From contig JAHIWG010000121.1 in assembly GCA_018816345.1 (NCBI GenBank), positions 1 through 44,260 on the forward strand: DNA of 44,260 nucleotides, given 5' to 3'. The translations under genes and the position numbers were made by a program. Below are positions 3,178 through 44,260 of the stretch, piece by piece. Position 1 is the stretch's first letter. Each line of letters starts with the position of its first letter. The notes below the pieces were generated by a model. It did not search any database. It was given only the letters and a program-made list of their open reading frames with translations, and was not told the origin of the DNA. Source of the DNA: Spirochaetota bacterium. Its GTDB lineage: Bacteria; Spirochaetota; Spirochaetia; Treponematales; UBA12059.

Positions 3178-4178
3178 TCCGCGGCGCGATGATGAGGGAG
3201 CCCCTGGCGGCGGGCTCGGAGAGCGCCGAGGCGATCGCGGCCAAGGTCGACGCCTCGCTCTTCGTGCCGGCCGACTTCGACGCGAACGCGGCCGAGCGCG
3301 GAGGCTATTCCGACTACTCGTACTGGCGCTCGACCATGCGCGGCTTCCTCAAGAACCGCGTGGCCCTCGGGTTCCTGCTCCTCCTGGGCGCGCTCCTCCT
3401 GTTCACCTTCGTCCAGCCGCTCCTGCCCGGCCAGAAGAGCCCGACGCATATACACATCGACCCGGCGACGGGCATGCAGTACCGCAACGTGGCCCCGGGG
3501 GCGGAATTCTGGTTCGGCACCAATACGATAGGCCAGGACCTGTGGGCGAGGATCTGGGGCGGGACGCGCACGTCGCTGATGCTTGGCCTGCTCGTCGGCG
3601 TGGCGGAGATGCTCATAGGCATCACCTTCGGGGCTATATGGGGCTACGTGCGCAGGCTCGACGGCGTGATCACCGAGATATACAACGTCATCAACAATAT
3701 ACCTACGACCATAGTCCTCATGCTGCTGGCCTACATCCTGCGCCCAAGCTTCAAGACCATGGTGATAGCGATGTGCGCCACCGGATGGCTGGGCCTGGCC
3801 CGCTTCGTCCGCAACCAGATAGTCATTATCAGGGACCGGGAGTACAACCTGGCGTCGCGCTGCCTAGGTACGCCCAGCAGGCGCATAATCGTCAAGAACC
3901 TCCTGCCGTACCTCGTGTCGGTGATAATGCTGCAGACGGCGCTCTCGATCCCGGGCACGATAGGCTGGGAGGTGTTCCTTACCTACATCGGGCTCGGGCT
4001 CCCGGTGAGCATCCCGTCCCTCGGCAACCTGGTCAACGAGGGCCGTCAGATCATGATGTCGCCGGAGCTGCGCTACCAGCTCCTGTTCCCGACGATCATC
4101 CTGTCGCTCATAACGATATCGTTCTACGTGCTCGGCAACGCGTTCTCGGACGCTTCCGACCCGCGCAACCACGTGTAA
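3174..4178 (+). CDS. Peptide ABC transporter permease (OppC/DppC family)
   Basis: 334-residue partner permease. A hydrophilic N-terminus of about 50 residues is followed by a family OppC_N-like segment (YWRSTMRGFLKNRVALGFLL), a periplasmic loop with the FGTNTIGQDLWAR signature typical of DppC/OppC, and an EAA loop near residues 221-248 (DREYNLASRCLGTPSRRII). ATGA overlap with oppB. Three in-frame Met codons lie within the first seven positions (3174, 3189, 3192); the first is kept because it gives the overlap typical of translational coupling. Confidence 0.93.
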   Translation: MIRGAMMREPLAAGSESAEAIAAKVDASLFVPADFDANAAERGGYSDYSYWRSTMRGFLKNRVALGFLLLLGALLLFTFVQPLLPGQKSPTHIHIDPATGMQYRNVAPGAEFWFGTNTIGQDLWARIWGGTRTSLMLGLLVGVAEMLIGITFGAIWGYVRRLDGVITEIYNVINNIPTTIVLMLLAYILRPSFKTMVIAMCATGWLGLARFVRNQIVIIRDREYNLASRCLGTPSRRIIVKNLLPYLVSVIMLQTALSIPGTIGWEVFLTYIGLGLPVSIPSLGNLVNEGRQIMMSPELRYQLLFPTIILSLITISFYVLGNAFSDASDPRNHV

Positions 4179-4188
4179 GGAAGAGGCC

Positions 4189-5280
4189 ATGGCAAAAGGC
4201 GACGCGATACTCGAGGCCAAGGACATCGTCATCAAGTTCAACCTGCGCGGGAGGACGCTGACGGCGATACGCGGGGCCGGCCTGCGGCTGAACGAGGGCG
4301 AGACCCTCGCCATAGTCGGCGAGTCGGGCTCCGGCAAGTCCGTGCTGACGAAGTCGTTCATAGGCATGCTCGACCAGAACGGCTGGGTCGACTCGGGCGA
4401 GGCCGTGTTCGAGGGCAGGAACCTCGCCGCTATCAAGGACGAGAAGGACTGGCTCGCGATACGCGGCAAGAAGATTTCGATGGTATTCCAGGATCCCATG
4501 ACGGCCCTCAATCCCCTGCTGACCGTAGGCGCGCAGATCAAGGAAGTCTTCGAGCTCCACCACGGGCTCTCGGGCAAGCAAGCGGATCACGCCGTCGTCG
4601 AGATGCTGGAGCGCGTGGGCATCGACAACCCGTCCGAGCGGCGCAAGCAGTATCCCCATGAATTCTCGGGCGGCATGAGGCAGCGCGTCGTCATTGCCAT
4701 CGCGGTGGCGTGCAAGCCGCGCATCCTCATATGCGACGAGCCTACGACGGCCCTGGACGTGACGATCCAGGCCCAGATACTCGACCTCATCAAGGCGCTC
4801 CAGCGCGACCTGGCCTTCACGACCGTCTATATCACCCACGACCTCGGCGTCGTCGCCAACGTCGCCGACAAGGTCGCCGTGATGTACGCCGGGCAGATCG
4901 TGGAGACCGGTAGCGCCGAGGAGGTGTTCTACGATTCCAGGCATCCGTATACCTGGGCGCTCCTGTCGTCGCTGCCCCAGCTTGGCGTGAAGGGACAGCC
5001 CTTGTACTCCATCTCCGGCACGCCGCCCAACCTGTTCAATACCGTCGTCGGGGACGCCTTCGCGCCCCGTAATCCCAAGGCTCTCAAGGTGGACTTCGCC
5101 GCCCAGCCGCCGATGTTCCAGGTAAGCCCGACGCATAGCGCCGCCACCTGGCTATTAGACCCGCGCGCGCCGGCCATGGAGCCGCCGCCGGCGATACTCG
5201 CGATGCGCGCCAAGCTCGGCGGCGCCAAGCTCGGCGGCGCCAAGCTCGGCGACGCGGCGAAGAACGGAGGGGCCCTATGA
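4189..5280 (+). CDS. Peptide ABC transporter ATP-binding protein (OppD/DppD family)
   Basis: 363-residue ATPase. Walker A GESGSGKS at about 44-51, Q-loop in [10 protein letters not shown], signature FSGGMRQRV at about 159-167, Walker [13 protein letters not shown] at about 180-191, then the H-loop in YITHDLGV. The C-terminal oligopeptide-transporter extension ([13 protein letters not shown]...) is present. The extreme C-terminus carries a short low-complexity repeat, AKLGG three times, encoded by a 15-bp tandem repeat. Good ribosome site (AGGAAGAGG). Overlaps oppF by ATGA. Powers peptide import together with OppF. Confidence 0.95.
5209..5253 (+). repeat. Three tandem copies of a 15-bp unit inside oppD
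   Basis: Units 5209-5223, 5224-5238 and 5239-5253 (GCCAAGCTCGGCGGC, last copy with one change). In frame, so the unit encodes AKLGG. The repeat is after the conserved domains and can vary in number without breaking the ATPase. Confidence 0.85.
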
Positions 5281-6230
5281 GCGGCGAATCGCGGGAGGTC
5301 GTACTCGAGCTTCGGGACCTTGAGGTAGCCTTCAAGGTCAAGGGCGGCGGTACCTTCAAGGCCGTCAAGGGCGTCAACTTCTGCATCTACAAGGGCGAGA
5401 CCTTCGGCCTCGTCGGCGAGTCCGGCTCCGGCAAGACGAGCATAGGGCGGGCCATCGTCAGGATCAACGACGCGAGCTCCGGCTCAATCCTCTACAAGGG
5501 CCGCCGGATCGACGGCCGGATTCCCAAGGAGCTGGACCTCGAGGTCGTCCGCAAGATACAGATGATATTCCAGGATCCCATGGCGTCCCTGAACGAGAGG
5601 GCCAAGGTCGATTACATAGTCTCCGAGGGGCTGTATAACATAGGCGTCAAGCGATCGGAGGAGGAGCGCAGGGAGCTCGTGGCCAAGGCCCTGCTCGAGG
5701 TGGGGCTCCTGCCGGAGTTCGCCTCGCGCTTCCCGCACGAGTTCTCCGGCGGCCAGCGGCAGCGCATCGGCATCGCGAGGGCGCTGATCATGGAGCCCGA
5801 GCTGATCGTCGCCGACGAGCCCATCTCCGCCCTGGACGTGTCTATACGGGCCCAGGTGCTCAACCTGCTATCGTCGATACAGAAGGCCAAGGGCCTCACG
5901 TACCTCTTCATAGCTCACGACCTCTCGGTCGTGCGGTTCATAACCGACCGCATCGCCGTCATCAGCAAGGGTAGGATAGTCGAGCTGGCGGAGACCGAGG
6001 AGCTGTTCCGGCACCCCCTGCATCCGTACACGAGGGCCCTCATCTCGGCCATACCCCAGCCCGACCCGCTCGCGGAGAGGCGGAAGGTCGTCAAGGTCTA
6101 CGACCCGGCGTGCCACGACTACTCGGTCGAGGGGCCCGCCTGGTCCGACGTCGGAGGGGGGCATTTCGTGCTGGCCAACTCCAAGGAACTGGAGGCGTAC
6201 CGGGAAGGCCTGGCCGCGGGCAGGCTCTGA
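5277..6230 (+). CDS. Peptide ABC transporter ATP-binding protein (OppF/DppF family)
   Basis: 317-residue second ATPase. Walker [10 protein letters not shown] at about 48-56, [11 protein letters not shown]-loop, signature FSGGQRQRI at about 156-164, Walker [13 protein letters not shown] at about 176-187, H-loop FIAHDLSVV, and the C-terminal [16 protein letters not shown] region followed by a Cys ([12 protein letters not shown]) as in DppF/OppF. Last gene of the oppBCDF-like operon. Ile codons here are ATA 11, ATC 13, ATT 1 by hand count, an unusual pattern for GC-rich DNA. Confidence 0.95.
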
Positions 6231-6241
6231 GCGGGAGGCCT

Positions 6242-6263
6242 CCGCCCGGAACGGCGCGGGCGG
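6242..6263. terminator. Hairpin between convergent genes
   Basis: CCGCCCG (6242-6248) pairs with CGGGCGG (6257-6263) in the 47-base gap between oppF and the minus-strand C26 gene. No T-run, so its role as a terminator is uncertain. Confidence 0.3.
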
Positions 6264-6277
6264 CTCCGGGATGTGCG

Positions 6278-7039
6278 CTACGCCAGGCCGGAGGCCGCCC
6301 TGAACGATGCGGCGGCCTGCGAGAGCGCGGCGAACGGCGCGAGGAACTCGGGGTAGCGCCGGCTCATCCCTTCCGGATGGAACTGCACGGCGACGAGGAA
6401 GGGCTCGCGGTCGACGGCCTCGACGGCCTCCACGACGCCGTCGGGAGCGCGGGCGGAGACGACGAGCCCGGGAGCCAGGTCCTTGACCGCCTGGTGGTGG
6501 AAGCTGTTGGCCAGGACGCGGCCCTCTCCGAACATGGCGGCGAGCCTCGTATCGGGGACGATATCGACGTAGTGGGCCGGCTCGTCCATGGGCATGTCGA
6601 AGGAGTGCCCTCCCGCCAGGGGCAGCTGCCCCTTGATGTCCTGGTACAGCGTGCCTCCGAGCGCCGCGTTGACGAGCTGGCAGCCTCGGCACACGCCTAG
6701 TATCGGGAGCCCGCGCGCCCGGGCGGCGGAGAATAGCGCTAGCTCCCAGCGGTCGCGGGCGGAGTCCATGCGCGCGACGCCCGCGGACGGGCTCTCGCCG
6801 TAGAGATAGGGCGCGATGTCCCCGCCGCCTGACAGGACGAGGCCGTCCAGCCGCCGGACGTAGTCCCGCGCGAAGGCTTCCGTCTCCTCGTCGCCCGACG
6901 GGAGCCCGCTTGGCCCCGGCAGTACGAAGGGGAGGCCGCCCGAGGCGGCGACGGAGTAGGCGTAGTTGATGTTGATGGATACGTAGACCGACCTGTTCTT
7001 ATGCTCGTCGAACGAGGTTACTCCGATGACGGGTACCAC
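6278..7039 (-). CDS. Gamma-glutamyl hydrolase, peptidase C26 / PuuD-like class I glutamine amidotransferase fold
   Basis: 253-residue cytoplasmic hydrolase. Members cleave gamma-glutamyl bonds, as E. coli PuuD does with gamma-glutamyl-GABA. Nucleophile Cys117 lies in the elbow GVCRGCQLVN; His221 and Glu223 in QFHPEG complete the triad; LSGGGDIAPYLY at 69-80 is the family glycine-rich block. Start is GTG ending at 7039, six bases after AGGAG; this gives the usual family length. The same frame stays open far upstream (to 7768), but that part runs antisense to the racemase gene and through a tandem repeat, so it is not coding. It sits between the peptide transporter and D-amino-acid genes, so gamma-D-glutamyl peptides are a plausible substrate (inference). 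Confidence 0.88.
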   Translation of the reverse strand: MVPVIGVTSFDEHKNRSVYVSININYAYSVAASGGLPFVLPGPSGLPSGDEETEAFARDYVRRLDGLVLSGGGDIAPYLYGESPSAGVARMDSARDRWELALFSAARARGLPILGVCRGCQLVNAALGGTLYQDIKGQLPLAGGHSFDMPMDEPAHYVDIVPDTRLAAMFGEGRVLANSFHHQAVKDLAPGLVVSARAPDGVVEAVEAVDREPFLVAVQFHPEGMSRRYPEFLAPFAALSQAAASFRAASGLA

Positions 7040-7078
7040 TGCTGGCTCCTCGCGGCCCGAAGACCGGCCGCGACCGGC

Positions 7079-7107
7079 ATTGTATACGTCCCGCCGCGTT
7101 TGGTGAA
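7079..7107 (-). promoter_or_regulatory. Promoter of the C26 hydrolase gene
   Basis: Minus strand TTCACC (7107-7102), 17-bp spacer, TACAAT (7084-7079). Places the start of transcription about 30 bases before the GTG codon. Confidence 0.45.
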
Positions 7108-7127
7108 GCGAGGGCGTAGCCATAGAC

Positions 7128-7199
7128 GAGGCGGCGGGCGAGGCGACGGATGAGGCGACGGGCGAGGCGACGGGCGAGGCGACGGGCGAGTCGCCGAGC
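7128..7199 (+). repeat. Six imperfect tandem copies of a 12-bp unit in a promoter gap
   Basis: Units begin at 7128, 7140, 7152, 7164, 7176 and 7188; consensus GAGGCGACGGGC. Units 3 to 5 are identical and the outer ones differ by one to three bases. The array sits between the divergent promoters of the C26 gene and the racemase operon. Confidence 0.85.
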
Positions 7200-7212
7200 G
7201 AGTCGGCCCCGC

Positions 7213-7239
7213 TTGAGGCGGCCGGGCCGCCGTGATAAT
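7213..7239 (+). promoter_or_regulatory. Possible promoter of the racemase operon
   Basis: TTGAGG (7213-7218), 15-bp spacer, GATAAT (7234-7239). The spacer is short, but this is the best -10 match in the gap and gives a leader of about 30 bases. Confidence 0.35.
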
Positions 7240-7276
7240 CTCGAGTATTCCCGCGCTTGATGGAGGGCGCGTCCCG

Positions 7277-8410
7277 ATGGTCGATAGGCAAGCATGGGCG
7301 GAGGTTGATCTCTCCGCTATAAGGAAGAACGCGCGGGCGCTGGCGGCGCTCGCCGGGGACGACGCCGGGCTGTGCGCCGTCGTCAAGGCCGACGGCTACG
7401 GCCACGGCGCGGCGCCGGTCGCGCGCGCCTGCATCGAGGCCGGCGCGACGTCGCTGGCGGTAGCCTTCGTCGAGGAGGGCGTCGAGCTCAGGCGCGCCGG
7501 TATCGTCGAGCCCGTACTGGTGCTCGGCTACACGGGCGAGGAAGGCGCGAGGCGGGCCTCCGGCTGGGGCCTGTCGACCATGGCGGTGTCGGTGGAGAAC
7601 GCACGCGTCCTCGCCGCCGAGGCCGAGCGCCAAGGCAAGGTCGCCCGCGTCCACCTGAAGGTAGACACGGGCATGGCCAGGCTCGGCGTGTCCCCCGACG
7701 AGGCGGGAGCGGCCGCGGCCGCTATAGCGTCGATGCCGGGAGCCGTCCTCGAGGGCGTCTGCTCCCACTTCGCGGCCGCCGACGCCGCCGACGGGGAATT
7801 CGCGGCCCTGCAGCTATCGCGCTTCACGGCCGCCGTCGACGAAGTACGCAAGGCGGGCGTCAGGGGCTTCGTCCGCCATATCGCCAATAGCGCGGCCCTG
7901 ATCCACGTCCCGGCGGCCCGCCTCGACATGGTCAGGCCCGGCATCGCGCTCTACGGCCTGCGCGCGTCCACGGAGCTGGAGCCCCCGTATCGGCCGTCCC
8001 CGGCCATGTCGCTGCGCGCCCGCGTCGTGCAGGTCAGGCTCGTGCCGGCGGGAGAGTCCGTAGGCTACGGCCGGAGCTTCCGAGCGGGCCGCGACGCGCG
8101 CATAGGCACCCTGCCTCTCGGCTACGCCGACGGCGTATCCCGGGGCCTCTCCAACCGCGGCTCGGTGGGCTTCCCTTCCGGGCGCGCGCCGATAGTCGGC
8201 CGGGTGTGCATGGATCAGATGATGGTGGACCTGACCGACCTGCCTAAGGTGGGCCAGGGAGACGTAGCCACGGTGTTCGGCCCCGGCGGCCCTTCGGTCT
8301 CCGAGGTCGCCGACCTCCTGGGCACGATAGACTACGAGGTGGTCTGCGCCGTCTCCAAGAGGGTCCCGAGGATCTACTCGGATTCGCGCATGGAGGAAGA
8401 CCTGGCATGA
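7277..8410 (+). CDS. alr: Alanine racemase
   Basis: 377-residue PLP fold-type III racemase interconverting L- and D-alanine. Lys37 in AVVKADGYGHG is the PLP lysine; Tyr264 in VGYGRSF matches the catalytic Tyr265 of the Geobacillus enzyme; GYADG and CMDQMMVD are the other family blocks; Tyr353 in TIDYEVVC matches the active-site-gate Tyr354. ATG at 7277 (after GGAGG) is preferred to a GTG at 7232 that adds 15 atypical residues. It heads an operon with a second, divergent racemase and an M20 hydrolase, joined by 4-base overlaps. In this setting it would turn D-Ala released from peptides into L-Ala, though it may also supply D-Ala for cell-wall synthesis. Confidence 0.93.
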   Translation: MVDRQAWAEVDLSAIRKNARALAALAGDDAGLCAVVKADGYGHGAAPVARACIEAGATSLAVAFVEEGVELRRAGIVEPVLVLGYTGEEGARRASGWGLSTMAVSVENARVLAAEAERQGKVARVHLKVDTGMARLGVSPDEAGAAAAAIASMPGAVLEGVCSHFAAADAADGEFAALQLSRFTAAVDEVRKAGVRGFVRHIANSAALIHVPAARLDMVRPGIALYGLRASTELEPPYRPSPAMSLRARVVQVRLVPAGESVGYGRSFRAGRDARIGTLPLGYADGVSRGLSNRGSVGFPSGRAPIVGRVCMDQMMVDLTDLPKVGQGDVATVFGPGGPSVSEVADLLGTIDYEVVCAVSKRVPRIYSDSRMEEDLA

Positions 8411-9630
8411 TGAGGCATACCCGTTACGACGTCGACCTCGACGCGGTCGTTCATAACTTCAGGCGAGTAAAAGAGATGCTATCGGACGGACCGCCCGCCG
8501 CGGACGGCCGGGCGCCTAGGGCCGCCGTCGTCCTCAAGGCGGACGCTTACGGGCTAGGCGCCGTGCCGGTCGCGCGCGCCCTCCTCCGCGAGGGGGCCGA
8601 CATGCTCGCGGTGGCGTGCATGCCCGAGGCCGTTCAGCTGAGGCTCGCCTTCCCCGACGCGCCCGTCCTCGTGATGGGGCATACGCCGAGCGAGTACTTC
8701 CCCGAGGCCGTCAGCCGGGGCATCGCCTGCACGATATTCGACTACGAGCAGGCCGAGGCTCTCTCCGCCGCGGCGCGCCTGGCGGGCGCGAAGGCGGTAG
8801 CCCACGTCAAGGTCGATACCGGCATGAACAGGCTCGGGCTCAAGCCCGGGCTCTTCGAGCCGGGCTCGTCCGAGGGCTCCGCCGCCGGGCTCCTGGCGAG
8901 GATGGCCGACCTCCCGTCCCTCCGGCTCGAAGGCATCTTCACTCACCTGGCGCTCAACGACGAGGCCTCCGACGAGGCCCAGTTCTCCATGTTCTGCAGG
9001 CTCCTATCGGATGCGTCTTCGCTCGGCGTCCGCTTCCCCCTGCGGCACGTCTGCGACTCCATCGGCCTCATGCGCTATCCGGGGTACCGCCTGGATATGG
9101 TAAGGGCCGGCGCCGTGATGTACGGCGTGACTCCCCTCGGCACCCCCCTGACCGAGGGCGCGGGCATGCGCACGCCCTTCCGCCTCTCTACCCGCATATC
9201 GAGGATACGGCCGCTCGCCGAGGGCGAGGGCGTCGGCTACGACTATACCTTTACGGCGCCGCCAGGCGGCGCGCTGATCGCGACGCTGCCCGTAGGCTAC
9301 GCTGACGGCTACAAGCGCTCCCTGTCCAACGTGGCCAGCGTCGTAGTGCGGGGCGTCAGGGCGCCGGTCGTCGGCCTCGTATGCATGGACCAGTGCACCG
9401 TCGACGTGAGCGCGGTGCCCGGCGTCAGCGAGGGCGACGAGGCCGTCCTCCTGGGCGGAGACCGGGCCGACCGGCCGGGCGAGGGCATCCCGGTCCTCGA
9501 GATGGCCGAATGGGCCAAGACCAACCGCAACGACGTCATCTGCTCCATAGGCAGGCGAGTGCCCCGCGTATACCGCGAGGGCGGCCGCGTCGTCGCCGAG
9601 TCAGACTACGTGCTTGGAGGCACACCGTGA
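8407..9630 (+). CDS. Alanine-racemase-family amino acid racemase with altered substrate gate
   Basis: 407-residue paralogue of the preceding racemase. PLP Lys44 (VVLKADAYGLG) and catalytic Tyr278 (VGYDYTF) are kept, as are GYADG and CMDQCTVD. At the gate the upstream paralogue reads TIDYEVVC but this one reads TNRNDVIC, so the Tyr is replaced by Asn375 in an ungapped alignment anchored by the shared RRVPR/KRVPR motif. In VanT serine racemases the same Tyr is Asn, and the Tyr-to-Asn change in an alanine racemase raises serine racemisation. A substrate other than alanine is therefore likely (inference), for example serine or another side chain released from D-peptides. ATGA overlap upstream, GTGA overlap downstream. 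Confidence 0.88.
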   Translation: MMRHTRYDVDLDAVVHNFRRVKEMLSDGPPAADGRAPRAAVVLKADAYGLGAVPVARALLREGADMLAVACMPEAVQLRLAFPDAPVLVMGHTPSEYFPEAVSRGIACTIFDYEQAEALSAAARLAGAKAVAHVKVDTGMNRLGLKPGLFEPGSSEGSAAGLLARMADLPSLRLEGIFTHLALNDEASDEAQFSMFCRLLSDASSLGVRFPLRHVCDSIGLMRYPGYRLDMVRAGAVMYGVTPLGTPLTEGAGMRTPFRLSTRISRIRPLAEGEGVGYDYTFTAPPGGALIATLPVGYADGYKRSLSNVASVVVRGVRAPVVGLVCMDQCTVDVSAVPGVSEGDEAVLLGGDRADRPGEGIPVLEMAEWAKTNRNDVICSIGRRVPRVYREGGRVVAESDYVLGGTP

Positions 9631-12784: not shown

Positions 12785-14047
12785 ATGGCACATCTACAGT
12801 TCGACGGCTGCGACGCGGTCACGCTCGCCAAGGAATACGGGACGCCGCTCTACGTCGTATCGGAGCGCATGATACGCGAGCGCCTCCGCGAGGTCCGCAA
12901 GGACTTCCTCGAGCGCTATCCCGATACCGAGGCCCTGTACGCCAGCAAGGCCCTGCAGACCCTGGACATATGCCGCATAGTCGCGTCGGAGGGGATAGGC
13001 CTGGACGTCGTGTCGGGCGGCGAGCTGTTCGCGGCGGCCAAGGCCGGCTTCCCCATGGACAGGATCTATTTCCACGGCAACTCCAAGACCGAGGCCGAGA
13101 TCCGTATGGCGGTGGAGTACGGCGTCGGCAGGATAGTCGTCGACAACCTGCACGAGCTGGCCACGCTGGACGAGGCCGCCCGCGCCCTCGGCCGGCGCGC
13201 CAAGATTCTCTTCAGGATCACCCCCGGCGTCGACAGCCACACCCACGACTTCATATCCACGGGCAAGCTCGATTCCAAGTTCGGCATTCCCCTCGACCCC
13301 CGCGTGCGCGACGAGTACGTCGGCGCGGCCCTGCGCATGGAGGGCGTGGAGCTCCTGGGCTTCCATTTCCACGTAGGCTCCCAGCTCCTGTCCAACGAGT
13401 CGCACCTCAAGGCCGTTAGCATAGTCTGCAGGCTCATGGCCGAGGTGCGGGACCGGTACGGCTTCGAGACCCGCGAGCTCAACCTCGGCGGGGGCTACGG
13501 CGTCCATTACAGCGGCGACGAGCGCGCCAGGCCCCTGTCGTACTTCGTCGACGCGATGATGGCGGACGTCCGAACCGCCTGCGCCGGGGCCCGCCTGCCC
13601 GTGCCCCGCGTGGTCATAGAGCCGGGCCGCTGGATAGTCGGCGAGGCCGGCATGACCCTGTACACCGTCGGCTCCAGGAAGGCCATACCCGACGTCAGGA
13701 CCTACGTAGGCGTCGACGGCGGCCTTCCCGATAACCCGAGGCCCGCGCTCTACGGCGCGATCTACGAGGCTACCGTCGCGGACCGCGACGACGCCGCCAG
13801 GAGCGAGGTCGTCACCGTGGCGGGGAAGTGCTGCGAGACCGGCGACATCCTGATCCGGGACGTGGCCCTGCAGTCGCCCATGCCCGGGGACACGCTGGCG
13901 GTCTTCACGACCGGCGCGTACAACCACTCCATGGCCAGCAACTACAACCGCCTCCCGCGCCCGGCGATGGTGCTTACGAACGCCGGCGAGCACCGCCTCT
14001 CCGTCAGGCGCGAGACCTTCGAGGACCTCGTCTCGAGGGAAGCCTAG
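12785..14047 (+). CDS. Diaminopimelate-decarboxylase-family PLP enzyme (fold type III)
   Basis: 420-residue decarboxylase. Lys55 in YASKALQ is the PLP lysine; HFHVGSQ at 194-200, GGGYG at 235-239, EPGR at 279-282, CCETGD at 349-354 and GAYN at 377-380 are LysA-family blocks, and DNPRPALYG matches the substrate region. LysA turns meso-DAP into L-lysine by acting on the D-centre. Inside this operon it would convert DAP released from muropeptides; a decarboxylase for another D-centred diamino acid is an alternative. Start at 12785 after AAGGTGG is preferred; an ATG at 12737 lacks a ribosome site and reads rare codons (TTA, ATA) through AT-rich leader. 64 bases separate it from ldcA; the M19 gene follows after 1 base. 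Confidence 0.87.
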   Translation: MAHLQFDGCDAVTLAKEYGTPLYVVSERMIRERLREVRKDFLERYPDTEALYASKALQTLDICRIVASEGIGLDVVSGGELFAAAKAGFPMDRIYFHGNSKTEAEIRMAVEYGVGRIVVDNLHELATLDEAARALGRRAKILFRITPGVDSHTHDFISTGKLDSKFGIPLDPRVRDEYVGAALRMEGVELLGFHFHVGSQLLSNESHLKAVSIVCRLMAEVRDRYGFETRELNLGGGYGVHYSGDERARPLSYFVDAMMADVRTACAGARLPVPRVVIEPGRWIVGEAGMTLYTVGSRKAIPDVRTYVGVDGGLPDNPRPALYGAIYEATVADRDDAARSEVVTVAGKCCETGDILIRDVALQSPMPGDTLAVFTTGAYNHSMASNYNRLPRPAMVLTNAGEHRLSVRRETFEDLVSREA

Positions 14048-39789: not shown

Positions 39790-42033
39790 CTAGCGTCCTT
39801 TCGGTAACGATCGCCCAGTAATTGCCGACTCGGCCGCGCAGGCCGCCAAGAAGAACCTGAAGCCGCCGTGCGCGGCTAGGTCGTCGTCGAGGGCCGCCTC
39901 GGCGAGCACCGTCGCCACGCCGACGTCCAGGAAGCCCGCGTCGTCCAGGACCCGTGCGACGGCCGTGCCGTGGGACCCGTCGGCGACGAAGGCCGCGAGC
40001 GCGGCCTTGAACTCGGCCGTCCCGGAGAATCCGCTCGGGGGGAGCGCGTCTTCCAGCGTGTCTAGCAGGCCCGCCACCGCTTCCCTCGGGTCGAGGGCGT
40101 ACGCGGAATACGAGAGGTAGAAGCCCCGGAGGCCGCCGAGGATGCCGGCGAGGGCGAGGACTATCTCGTCGAAGGCGTACGAAGGCGGATCCTTGCGCTT
40201 GAGCACCGCGACGAGGGTGGGCACGGAGCTGGCCTTGCCGAATTGCTCTATCGCCGAGGCGGCGCTGATCATGAGCCTAGGGTTGCCCGTCCCCTCGACC
40301 AGCGCCTCGATGGCCGGTAGGCTCGCCTCGTCCCTCATGGCCGCGAGCGCCGTCACCGCGGCCCCGCGGAGCATATAGTCCTCCGCGCCCAGCGCCGCCC
40401 TCAGGGCCGGAAGGCTCTCGGCCCTGCCGCGCTTGCCTAGGATGCGGGCGGCGATGTACGCGGTGGTATAGGTGTTCTTCTCTATCTCGAGCTCGATGGC
40501 CTTGAGCGCCTTGGCCGAGAGCCGCTCCAGGTTCTCCAGCGCGAGCAGGGCCTCCACCCTGACGTCGAACCTCGGGCTAGACAGGTAGGGCAGGAGCTCC
40601 CGCTCCGCTACCGCCGCCCCGTAGCCGCCTAGCTCGCGGATGATGCGTATCTCGTCCGCCGGCGAGCCGCTCTTCTCCAGGAGCTCAAGGAGCCCTATGG
40701 CCTTGAGGTCGCGCATCGAGAAGAGCACCCCGAGCGATTCCCTGACCGAGGCCGAGCCCGGAGCGCTCAGCTTCAGCGCCCACGCCGCCGATAGGGCCGT
40801 CACCGCGAAGGCCGCCGCGTAGAGGTAGCGATAGCTCGTCGCGACGCTAATCCCGACGGCCGACAAGGCGTCGAGGAAAACGCCTCCGGCGGCCGATCCC
40901 AGAGCCCCGCCGAATCCGTAGACGACGTAGTAGACGACGGCGAGGTCCACCATGTGCTCCGGCCTGACTATGGAGAAGAAGTACGTCTGGCCGGCGTTCT
41001 CCTCGCCCGAGATGCCCAGGCCGACTATGAAGTTGAGGAGGCACAGGAAGGCGACGGTGCCGGCCGCGGTCCCGAAGGCGGGGCTCGCGGCGGCCGGTAT
41101 CATCGCCAGCGCGGCCACGGCCGTGAACACCACGTATAGCGGCTTGGCCCCGAGCCGGTCCATCAGCTTCCTCGACAGGTAGCCCACGGCGACGCTCCCT
41201 AGGTTGAAGGCCACGTAGTAGGCCATGACGAGGCCCGGGCTCTGGCCGTACAGCACGCGCGAGTGGGTCACTATGAAGGTGCGCGCCATGCCGGCGGAGA
41301 ACGAGAGCGGCGCGAAGACCCATACGAAGCGCCTGAGCCGCGGGTCCGCCCAGGCTTCCTTCACTGTCGCGGAGAACGAGGAGCCTTGCGGCGGCCTATA
41401 GGCCTCGGGCTCGGGCAGGCCGAGCAGTATCGACGACGCCGCGGAGCCGGCCAGCACGCCGGCGCCTATGAGGGCGCCGTAGAGCGCGTCCCCGGACCAG
41501 GCGCCCAGCACCAGCATGGTCGCGACGCTCGTCGCGATAGCCGATAGGCTGTTGGCGATCTGGACGTTCGACAGGAAGGCCCCCCTGTCGCGCTCGCTCG
41601 CCATCATGCCCAGCACGGGGTTGTTCCCTATGAGGCCTATTCCCCTGAAGATATTGAAGAGGAGGCTTCCGCCGAGGAGGAGGACGAGGCCCCAGGAGGG
41701 CGCTCCCGCGCGGGCCAGGAGGGGCGCGGCTATGACGGGAGCCATGCCCCAGTAGCGGAACATCCACGACCAGCCGAATACCTTGATGATAGGCCTGCCC
41801 CGGATGGCCCGCCTTCCTAGGGGCATGAAGAAGTACGTGATGAAATTAAGCGAGCCGAGGATGCCGATGTAGGTGCCCGTCGCGCCCATCTCGAGGGCGA
41901 ACAGGGTCGGTATATTGCCCGACAGGAGCATGAACGATAGCGAATTGAGCACGTTGAACGCCAGGAAGCGGGATCTATAGCGCTCTATCCTGCTCTTGGG
42001 CCTGCGTAACGATGCCGCGCGGGGCTTAGTCAT
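39790..42033 (-). CDS. MFS transporter fused to a C-terminal HEAT-repeat domain
   Basis: 747 residues. About 1-430 form a 12-helix major facilitator domain (SLSFMLLSGNIPTLFALEMG at the start; helix 4-5 loop NNPVLGMMASERDRGAF). Residues about 450-740 are helical repeats of HEAT/PBS type: IIRELGGYGAAVAERELLPY, then DVRVEALLALENLE, ARILGKRGRAESLPALRAAL, AAVTALAAMRDEASLPAIEA, ASAIEQFGKASSVPTLVAVL. Such fusions are uncommon. Substrate unknown. No ribosome site; a TATAAT sits 6 bases before the ATG, so the mRNA is probably leaderless. Downstream proC is in the same unit. Confidence 0.85.
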   Translation of the reverse strand: MTKPRAASLRRPKSRIERYRSRFLAFNVLNSLSFMLLSGNIPTLFALEMGATGTYIGILGSLNFITYFFMPLGRRAIRGRPIIKVFGWSWMFRYWGMAPVIAAPLLARAGAPSWGLVLLLGGSLLFNIFRGIGLIGNNPVLGMMASERDRGAFLSNVQIANSLSAIATSVATMLVLGAWSGDALYGALIGAGVLAGSAASSILLGLPEPEAYRPPQGSSFSATVKEAWADPRLRRFVWVFAPLSFSAGMARTFIVTHSRVLYGQSPGLVMAYYVAFNLGSVAVGYLSRKLMDRLGAKPLYVVFTAVAALAMIPAAASPAFGTAAGTVAFLCLLNFIVGLGISGEENAGQTYFFSIVRPEHMVDLAVVYYVVYGFGGALGSAAGGVFLDALSAVGISVATSYRYLYAAAFAVTALSAAWALKLSAPGSASVRESLGVLFSMRDLKAIGLLELLEKSGSPADEIRIIRELGGYGAAVAERELLPYLSSPRFDVRVEALLALENLERLSAKALKAIELEIEKNTYTTAYIAARILGKRGRAESLPALRAALGAEDYMLRGAAVTALAAMRDEASLPAIEALVEGTGNPRLMISAASAIEQFGKASSVPTLVAVLKRKDPPSYAFDEIVLALAGILGGLRGFYLSYSAYALDPREAVAGLLDTLEDALPPSGFSGTAEFKAALAAFVADGSHGTAVARVLDDAGFLDVGVATVLAEAALDDDLAAHGGFRFFLAACAAESAITGRSLPKGR

Positions 42034-42088: not shown

Positions 42089-43450
42089 TTAGCTCCTCGC
42101 GGCGCCCGGGCCCGGAGCGGCGATCGCCTTGCGCTTCCAGCGCCCTCCGAGGTAGTACCAGGTGGAGAAGGTCGCCCCCATCAGCCATCCCGCCGGGACG
42201 CTCCACCAGATTCCGTCCGAGCCGAGCCCGAGCGGCCCCGAGAAGAGGATGGCGCAGGGGATGCGTACCACCCAGAGCGCCAGTATCGTATTGATCATGG
42301 GGATGAAGGCGTCGCCCGCGCCGCGCATGACGCCGTTGTTAATGAACATCGTCGAGAAGAGGAGGTAGGTCGCGCCGACTATCGCGAGGTACCTGGCGCC
42401 TATCGCCATCACCTCGGCGTCGCGCGTGAACAATCCCATGAGCTGCTCCCCGAAGAACACGACGACGGCGCCTACGGCCAGCGATATGGCGCCGCCTACT
42501 ACGATCGCCGATAGGTGGCCGCGCTTGACCCGCTCGGTCTTGCCGGCGCCCATATTCTGCCCCGTGAAGGTGGAGACCGCCTGGCTCAGGTTCATTGCCG
42601 GCATCGACGCGAAGCTGTCGAGCCTGGACGCCGCGGAGAACGCCGCTATCGTGGCGGTGCCGTGGCCGTTGACGATACGGGACAGCGCCATCATGCCTAG
42701 CGACACCATCGTCTGCTGTACGCCGGTAGGCAGCCCTATCCGGAGGCTGTGCTTGAAGATGTCCTTGTCGAAGCGCAGCGCCTTCGGCTCCAGGCGGACG
42801 AGCCTGTTCTTCTTGTCGACGTAGGCTAGCCCCCCCGCGAACGAGGCGCCCTGCGAGATGACGGTGGCCCACGCGACCCCGGAGACTCCCCAGCCGAAAG
42901 CGACGACGAATAGGAGGTCGAGCGCCACGTTGAGCAGGCTCGCGGCCATTAGGAGGTACAGCGGCGTCTTGGAGTCGCCGAGGCCGCGTAGCACGGCCGA
43001 TATCCCGTTATAGCCGAACATCGCCAGGAGCCCGGAGAAGATGATGCGCAGGTAGGCCGAGGCCTCGGGGAAAACGTCCGCCGGGACCTTGAGCAGGGTG
43101 AGGATCGCGTCGGTGGATAGGACCCCGATGATCGACATGGCGAGCCCCGACCAGAAGAGCGTGATGTAGCCGGTGTCGACGGACGCGCGGACCTTCTCCT
43201 CGTCCTTGGCCCCGAAGTACTGGGCGACGAGCACCATCGTGCCCATCGTTAGTCCCATGACCAGCGATATCATCAGGAATATGATGGGGAAGGCCGTCCC
43301 GACGGCGGCGAGCGCGGTCGTGCCGACGAAGTTGCCGACGACGACGCTGTCCACCAGGTTATAGAACTGCTGGAAGACGTTGCCTATGAGCATGGGGAGG
43401 GCGAAGAATATGATGGTGCGGGTCTCGCCGCCTTGGGTCAAGTCTTTCAT
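42089..43450 (-). CDS. MATE family multidrug/Na+-type exporter
   Basis: 453 residues with 12 membrane helices in two MatE domains (about 13-175 and 235-400). The N-terminus LTQGGETRTIIFFALPMLIG and the PMLIGNVFQQFYNLVDSVVVG helix 1 block are typical of the NorM/DinF-like VmrA group. Exports cationic compounds using an ion gradient. Start at the ATG ending at 43450, five bases after GGAG, with its own promoter. Ends 55 bases before the MFS start, so likely transcribed separately. Confidence 0.92.
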   Translation of the reverse strand: MKDLTQGGETRTIIFFALPMLIGNVFQQFYNLVDSVVVGNFVGTTALAAVGTAFPIIFLMISLVMGLTMGTMVLVAQYFGAKDEEKVRASVDTGYITLFWSGLAMSIIGVLSTDAILTLLKVPADVFPEASAYLRIIFSGLLAMFGYNGISAVLRGLGDSKTPLYLLMAASLLNVALDLLFVVAFGWGVSGVAWATVISQGASFAGGLAYVDKKNRLVRLEPKALRFDKDIFKHSLRIGLPTGVQQTMVSLGMMALSRIVNGHGTATIAAFSAASRLDSFASMPAMNLSQAVSTFTGQNMGAGKTERVKRGHLSAIVVGGAISLAVGAVVVFFGEQLMGLFTRDAEVMAIGARYLAIVGATYLLFSTMFINNGVMRGAGDAFIPMINTILALWVVRIPCAILFSGPLGLGSDGIWWSVPAGWLMGATFSTWYYLGGRWKRKAIAAPGPGAARS

Positions 43451-43484: not shown

Positions 43485-43512
43485 AGTATATGAATAACCG
43501 AGTCGTTGTCTA
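43485..43512 (-). promoter_or_regulatory. Promoter of the MATE gene
   Basis: Minus strand TAGACA (43512-43507), 16-bp spacer, TATACT (43490-43485), five of six matches in each box. Confidence 0.55.
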
Positions 43513-43582
43513 CGTTCCAGGCTGGCGGCCGGAGGCTGACCGGTACTTGAAGCGCCGGTCCGCGTCGAGCTACTGTGTCCGG

Positions 43583-44260
43583 ATGAACCTGCCCTTCCTG
43601 AAGCTTCGCGTCGCCGATTGCCCCTGGATCGTATTCGATCGCTCCTCGGAGGCGCCCGGCGACGAGCTGCCGTGGGGTCCTATAGCCGTCGATATCTGCA
43701 GCCGGTCTCGGGGAGCCTCGGCCGTAGGCGTCATCGTGCTGGGCAGGAGGGACGGGCGCCCCGAGGCGCGTACCTGGGACTCGGCCGGCGAGCCCCGCGA
43801 CCCGCCGCCCGCCGCGCTGCTCTGCGCGTCGAGGCTGCTGTTCGACGCCGGGAGGGCGGGCCCCGATTCCGTCTCCCTCCGCATTCCCTCCGGTGAGGCC
43901 GAGGTCATGGTCATCGATTCCAGGATACTTGGGCTGTCGGTCGGGTTTCCGTCGCGCGAGGACGGCTCCTCGCTCGGCGAGGCCGCCGGCGCCCTTGGGC
44001 GCGGGTTCTCGGCGCCGGCCGGGCTCTGCGTCGCCATGCCCGTCCGCCTGGGCGCGGAGACGCTGGAGGTCGTGCTGTTCGATAGCCCGCCGGCCAGGAA
44101 ATCGGTTCGCCGTACCGCCTCGCGCGTCGACGCGCTCGCCGTGTCGCGGCAGGAGCTGCGCGTCCGCCGCGGAACCCGGGACCCTCTCGTAGCCGCCGCG
44201 GCCGCCTTGGCCGCCGCGGTAGAGGCCGATTACGCCGATAGGGAGGCCTCGGTCATCGTC
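43583..44260 (+). CDS. Diaminopimelate-epimerase-like protein lacking catalytic cysteines (partial, runs off the window)
   Basis: Open for 226 codons to the window end. The start MNLPFLKLRVADCPWIVFD aligns by eye with the DapF N-terminus (FxKMxGxGNDFVxxD type); VDICSRSRGASAVGVIVLG with the 'CDRxxGIGADGxxxL' block; WDSAGEPRDPPPAALLCASR with the NxDGSEAxMCGNGxRC block; VRRGTRDPLVAAAAALAAAV with the ERGxGETxACGTGACAA block. Both catalytic Cys positions and the CGNG/CGTG motifs are replaced, so it is probably not an active epimerase. The frame also has an ATG at 43490, but this would start inside the MATE promoter. Similarity was judged by eye, not by a search. Confidence 0.6.
   Translation, partial: MNLPFLKLRVADCPWIVFDRSSEAPGDELPWGPIAVDICSRSRGASAVGVIVLGRRDGRPEARTWDSAGEPRDPPPAALLCASRLLFDAGRAGPDSVSLRIPSGEAEVMVIDSRILGLSVGFPSREDGSSLGEAAGALGRGFSAPAGLCVAMPVRLGAETLEVVLFDSPPARKSVRRTASRVDALAVSRQELRVRRGTRDPLVAAAAALAAAVEADYADREASVIV

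Follow-up and report, generated by a model that had tools for sequence, protein, structure and literature searches.

The 44,260-nucleotide window spans the whole of contig C109, one of the 175 contigs that make up a 3.8 Mb genome, and ends in the start of a gene whose product is shown by sequence comparison to be a homolog of diaminopimelate epimerase (DapF) that has lost both catalytic cysteines together with most of the substrate-binding residues. We regard the protein as a pseudo-epimerase, whose likeliest job, put forward tentatively and with a little less than even confidence, would be a non-catalytic one in stem-peptide synthesis, docking on MurE in a lineage with a probably ornithine-containing cell wall. 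A full-length DapF-type protein would long ago have lost the two-thiol racemization chemistry and would nevertheless have been retained by selection in spirochaetes.

Only the start of the gene lies in the window. Its first 226 codons (43583-44260, forward strand), called on the open frame, the orthologs, and the profile match to DapF, form the intact frame that had been read from the sequence alone, open up to the contig end, and about 45 C-terminal residues fall past that end. In the orthologs, the aligned C-terminus is DapF-like (VxAxxxYxxxGEF). Conservation among the orthologs begins at the methionine at 43583, which argues that this start is right; the in-frame upstream stretch to an earlier ATG at 43490 (43490-43582, forward strand) is unconserved in orthologs and probably not part of the protein. 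The motifs named in the sequence-only reading proved to be exact to the letter. PPAALLC (residues 75-81, 43805-43825, forward strand) aligns with CGNGxRC of DapF, with proline at the equivalent of Cys73 and only the second, non-catalytic cysteine retained, and VAAAAALAA (residues 203-211, 44189-44215, forward strand) aligns with ACGTGACAA. For a three-residue gap in the latter block, two placements are possible (before RG or at CGT), by which the equivalent of the catalytic Cys217 becomes either alanine or a deletion, and the cysteine is lost either way. In the GND and GADG blocks, which had been described as degraded, KLRVADCPWIVFD (43601-43639, forward strand) faces KMxGxGNDFxxxD with the GND asparagine lost, and GASAVG (43712-43729, forward strand) faces GIGADG.

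Searched singly against Pfam and NCBIfam, the window protein failed to hit a DapF model. A thioesterase match was sub-threshold (E 0.16-0.2) and was judged to be due to chance. Of 58 related genomes, 25 yielded an ortholog (26 of the 59 searched when its own genome is included). A profile built from an alignment (A1) of 18 family members matched 16 solved sequences over their full length, all of which are DapF or O-ureidoserine racemase; the top match was the O-ureidoserine racemase 7vdy (E 8.7e-21), 9mro was matched at E 1.7e-18, and the DapFs in the PDB were matched at full length with E values from 1.7e-18 to 4.2e-9. When members were scanned singly, PF01678, the model against which a search had been proposed, left the window protein unmatched but was matched by 9 of the 18, and TIGR00652 was matched by 14 of the 18 (best 6.1e-18), with no family match above the TIGR00652 cut-off in 18 related genomes. 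HHalign of the core family versus local DapFs gave 99.7% (E 7e-27). Taken together, the full-length profile matches, the hits of single members, and the HHalign result lend good support to the descent of the family from DapF that the sequence-only reading had proposed, and the whole-length alignment agrees with the DapF-like order and spacing of motifs noted there. An AlphaFold2 model built with only two sequences reached a pLDDT of 37, and the DapF fold is predicted for the family solely on the strength of the profile matches.

The active site was compared by aligning 24 core members with 13 further Cys-less proteins and 18 local DapFs, with residue numbers (C73, C217, N11, etc.) that we take to follow the H. 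influenzae enzyme. C73 is kept in a single core member (1/24, a locally shifted row) versus 10 of the 18 local DapFs, whose remaining eight members carry serine, and C217 is kept in none of the 24 versus 10 of the 18. Save for the one shifted row, the catalytic cysteine positions of the Cys-less proteins are empty or occupied by other residues. Pocket residues present in all 18 DapFs are mostly gone from the 24 core members, where N11 is kept in four, N64 in two, N75 in none, N190 in one, E208 in none, and R209 in nine; N157 is likewise found in 0/24. This pocket loss is more extensive in the core than in the other Cys-less members. In three genomes of the genus g9, the Cys-less protein has a cysteine two residues off both catalytic positions.

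The family is under purifying selection. NG86 dN/dS values for six pairs of relatives were 0.153, 0.178, 0.162, 0.178, 0.069, and 0.080, and those of the window protein versus two congeners were 0.219 and 0.345, where dS is high and the values are less reliable. A chance resemblance or a decaying gene, which the failure of the window protein alone to match DapF models might suggest, is extremely improbable, being ruled out by the full-length profile E value of 8.7e-21, dN/dS far under 1, and orthologs in 25/58 relatives. The earlier judgment that the gene is not a decayed one is thus upheld by open frames and dN/dS of 0.07-0.34, and the proposed pseudoenzyme character is supported by the profile homology, by the family-wide loss of both catalytic cysteines under such selection, and by a true dapF at another place in the genome.

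Loss of the cysteines does not, however, prove the loss of all catalysis, because PhzF, which has a DapF-like fold, catalyzes an isomerization without the two cysteines. The main rival to a non-catalytic partner is a Cys-free enzyme of new specificity, that is, an isomerase, epimerase, or lyase that would act on a stem-peptide intermediate or an amino acid, with other residues of this cleft serving as acid and base. Such an enzyme, which we consider somewhat unlikely, would suit the aspartate found at the N75 position in many outgroup members (DALLCAAR), the invariant or near-invariant polar residues K7, R84, D88, D112, R189, and D200, the precedent of the Cys-free PhzF in the fold family, and the location of relatives in mur clusters, as befits a pathway enzyme. 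In the window's genus, however, the N75-position aspartate is replaced by alanine, valine, or serine, some of the invariant residues are shared with DapF and look structural, and the pocket positions differ among members.

Cys-less relatives were found in the families f1, f2, and f4 in a first search of 59 genomes, and a wider search, which took in 393 genomes from the phylum, added the families f3 and f5 within the order and f8, f15, f20, and f21 within the class. A new result is that the family spans several families of one spirochaete class; those out-of-class matches that were inspected (L103, L107, and L108, among the higher-scoring ones) are ordinary Cys/Cys DapFs. A maximum-likelihood tree was calculated from 63 rows, comprising 40 Cys-less proteins and 23 DapFs (Cys/Cys, Ser/Ser, and CarB-fused). 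A branch of length 0.91 with 100/100 support divides the 40 Cys-less rows from the 23 DapFs, and three of the 63 rows lie on long branches. In this unrooted tree, the Cys-less proteins are shown to be deeply split from all DapFs compared; we read them as one old family, and they may form a single clade.

The link to cell wall synthesis rests on the gene order around relatives in sister families. Nine loci of the sister families f3 and f5 were examined (L112, L114, L115, L117, L118, L119, L154, L155, and L105), and in every one the Cys-less gene is closely preceded by murE on the same strand. A ddl gene separates the two in seven of these (L112, L114, L115, L118, L119, L154, and L155), and L117 and L105 have murE immediately next to the Cys-less gene. 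In L112, L118, and L119, the order murE, ddl, and Cys-less gene continues immediately with murD. The genes of L118 are tightly packed (murE 3433-5058, ddl 5055-6173, the Cys-less gene 6192-7082, and murD 7075-8466). This murE-linked order in two sister families is a new observation.

In the window's own family, the Cys-less gene lies outside the mur cluster, with RNase HII, GNAT, GH3, and TrxB as common neighbors, which counts against the wall role. A divergent RNase HII gene (rnhB) is found in 10 of 17 loci of f1, f2, and f4, while TrxB, a GH3 enzyme, and a GNAT protein are nearby and convergent in many loci; the GH3 neighbor, frequent in f1 and f4, is nearest to beta-N-acetylhexosaminidase, below the cut-off, and is a point in favor of the wall role. 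In L039 (8393-9989) and L043 (1717-3271), the 5' ends of rnhB and the divergent Cys-less gene overlap according to the ORF calls. Since the strands of these neighbors differ (divergent or convergent), they do not form an operon with the Cys-less gene. The other families of the class have unrelated neighbor genes, for example a CvpA-like protein, holB, a histidine kinase, an NtrC-type regulator, and a helicase in one f20 genome. It is unlikely, even more so than a Cys-free enzyme, that within this genus the protein has moved from wall synthesis to an unrelated binding or structural role, in which case the mur link of the relatives would be an older or separate state. The divergent rnhB in 10 of the 17 loci, overlapping in some, and the greater pocket loss in the core group than in other Cys-less members would fit such a departure, but the neighbors in f1, f2, and f4 have no pathway in common and differ in strand. 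RNase HII was set aside as the main functional clue because no pathway connects it with the Cys-less protein, and it is kept only within this alternative.

With regard to the cell wall itself, the sequence-only reading had raised the matter of a true dapF elsewhere in the genome, and one is present (L002) with CGNGARC and ACGTGS. As the genome has this gene, a dapB-like gene, and lysA (diaminopimelate decarboxylase, 12788-14041, forward strand, in the window; TIGR01048, E 7.5e-135, over the cut-off), DAP is made there, presumably for lysine. The genome also carries murE and ddl followed by an ornithine--oxo-acid transaminase (ornithine aminotransferase, over the cut-off). In all 10 MurEs compared, the organism's own included, EDPR aligns where mDAP-adding MurE has DNPR, a motif whose role in the latter enzymes has been described (PMC3829189). 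L-ornithine occurs in the walls of Borrelia (PMC8092773). The wall of the window's own lineage probably carries ornithine, with which EDPR fits without proving it, as the arginine of DNPR is retained and the specificity of MurE can be loose, as in S. aureus. Of the suggestion that the wall of this lineage may not need DAP, the part on the wall gains indirect support from the EDPR MurE and the ornithine aminotransferase after murE-ddl, but DAP is still made.

DapF works as a dimer, and the Cys-less protein might be a regulatory subunit that forms heterodimers with true DapF, both of which are carried by the window's genome. This is very unlikely. The Cys-less gene is unlinked to dapF in its own genome, and DapF (PF01678, or TIGR00652 over the cut-off) was not detected in eight genomes that have the Cys-less gene and are at least 93% complete (G009, G011, G014, G015, G016, G018, G019, and G020). 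An obligate DapF subunit is improbable where the gene occurs with DapF undetected, and this reading was rejected. In G015, G020, and G022 (all of genus g9) and in G025, in which true DapF was likewise not found with PF01678 and TIGR00652, lysA is present, as is a dapB-like gene in G015, G020, and G025; DAP dehydrogenase was not found in G015 and G025, the two genomes searched for it.

The loss of the chemistry and of most of the pocket despite conserved fold positions, together with the siting of relatives in two families beside murE and ddl, leads us to favor the non-catalytic partner in stem-peptide synthesis. MurE is the first candidate for its binding partner because a protein-fragment assay reportedly detected an interaction between DapF and MurE of M. 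tuberculosis (PMC3605390). The pseudo-epimerase may dock on MurE, and perhaps on Ddl or MurD, and could in this position steady or tune the addition of the third residue or else sense the diamino acid; the wall of the window organism would carry ornithine. In the window's own genus, whose copy of the gene is found away from the mur cluster, a wall role is predicted. A wider and more speculative version, which we hold with low confidence, is that the class-wide pseudo-epimerase goes back to a switch of the spirochaete wall from meso-DAP to ornithine, by which a wall DapF left without substrate would have been retained next to murE and ddl, where it would serve MurE as a docking or allosteric partner, whereas the DapFs of the lysine pathway kept their chemistry.

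The family resembles DapF (PF01678, TIGR00652) in its whole-length two-domain alignment, in the order and spacing of motifs, in structural glycine, lysine, and aspartate positions, and in the C-terminal block. It differs in the missing catalytic cysteine pair and most substrate-binding residues, in that no member was seen over the TIGR00652 cut-off, and in forming a separate deep branch. As a DapF enzyme, the family falls short on cysteines, binding residues, and cut-offs, its descent from DapF notwithstanding. O-ureidoserine racemase (7vdy) and the histidine racemases HisR and CntK are DapF-fold proteins with a changed substrate, but HisR retains the catalytic pair C67/C209 (PMC11602996) that the Cys-less family is missing. 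PhzF has a DapF-like fold without the two catalytic cysteines; the Cys-less family is closer to DapF, and only one of 18 members gave a match, a weak one (E 0.053), to PF02567 (PhzF). A published description of the Cys-less family was not found in the literature searched, and one may still exist. If the proposed role is true, a cofactor-independent racemase would here have given rise to a lineage of pseudoenzymes that is widely conserved in one bacterial class and tied to wall synthesis through the gene order of relatives, and the family would offer a way into the assembly and control of the unusual stem peptide of spirochaetes. An annotation of such Cys-less genes as diaminopimelate epimerase would be wrong.

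Two further types of altered DapF were observed. The order contains another group of DapFs (L056-L065; for example, L059 in the congener G002 and L063 in G012) in which serine stands in place of both catalytic cysteines (KSGNGLRIF ... ERGAGYTLASGSSSCA) with all other active-site residues retained; the eight of them included in the tree make up a single clade with 100/100 support, and several members lie within a few kb of lysA on the same contig. In f3 and f5 genomes, DapF is found at the C-terminus of CarB, the large chain of carbamoyl-phosphate synthase (L157, 5626-9582, reverse strand; L051-L055; and L078), in open frames of about 1320-1450 amino acids. In those CarB-DapF proteins that were read, the N-terminal catalytic cysteine is glycine or alanine (GGN/AGN) and ACGTG is retained. 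In the window, the divergent neighbor of the Cys-less gene encodes a MATE family efflux transporter (42089-43450, reverse strand; TIGR00797, E 1.3e-88), and a 747-amino acid protein at 39790-42033 (reverse strand) joins a major facilitator transporter to HEAT repeats.
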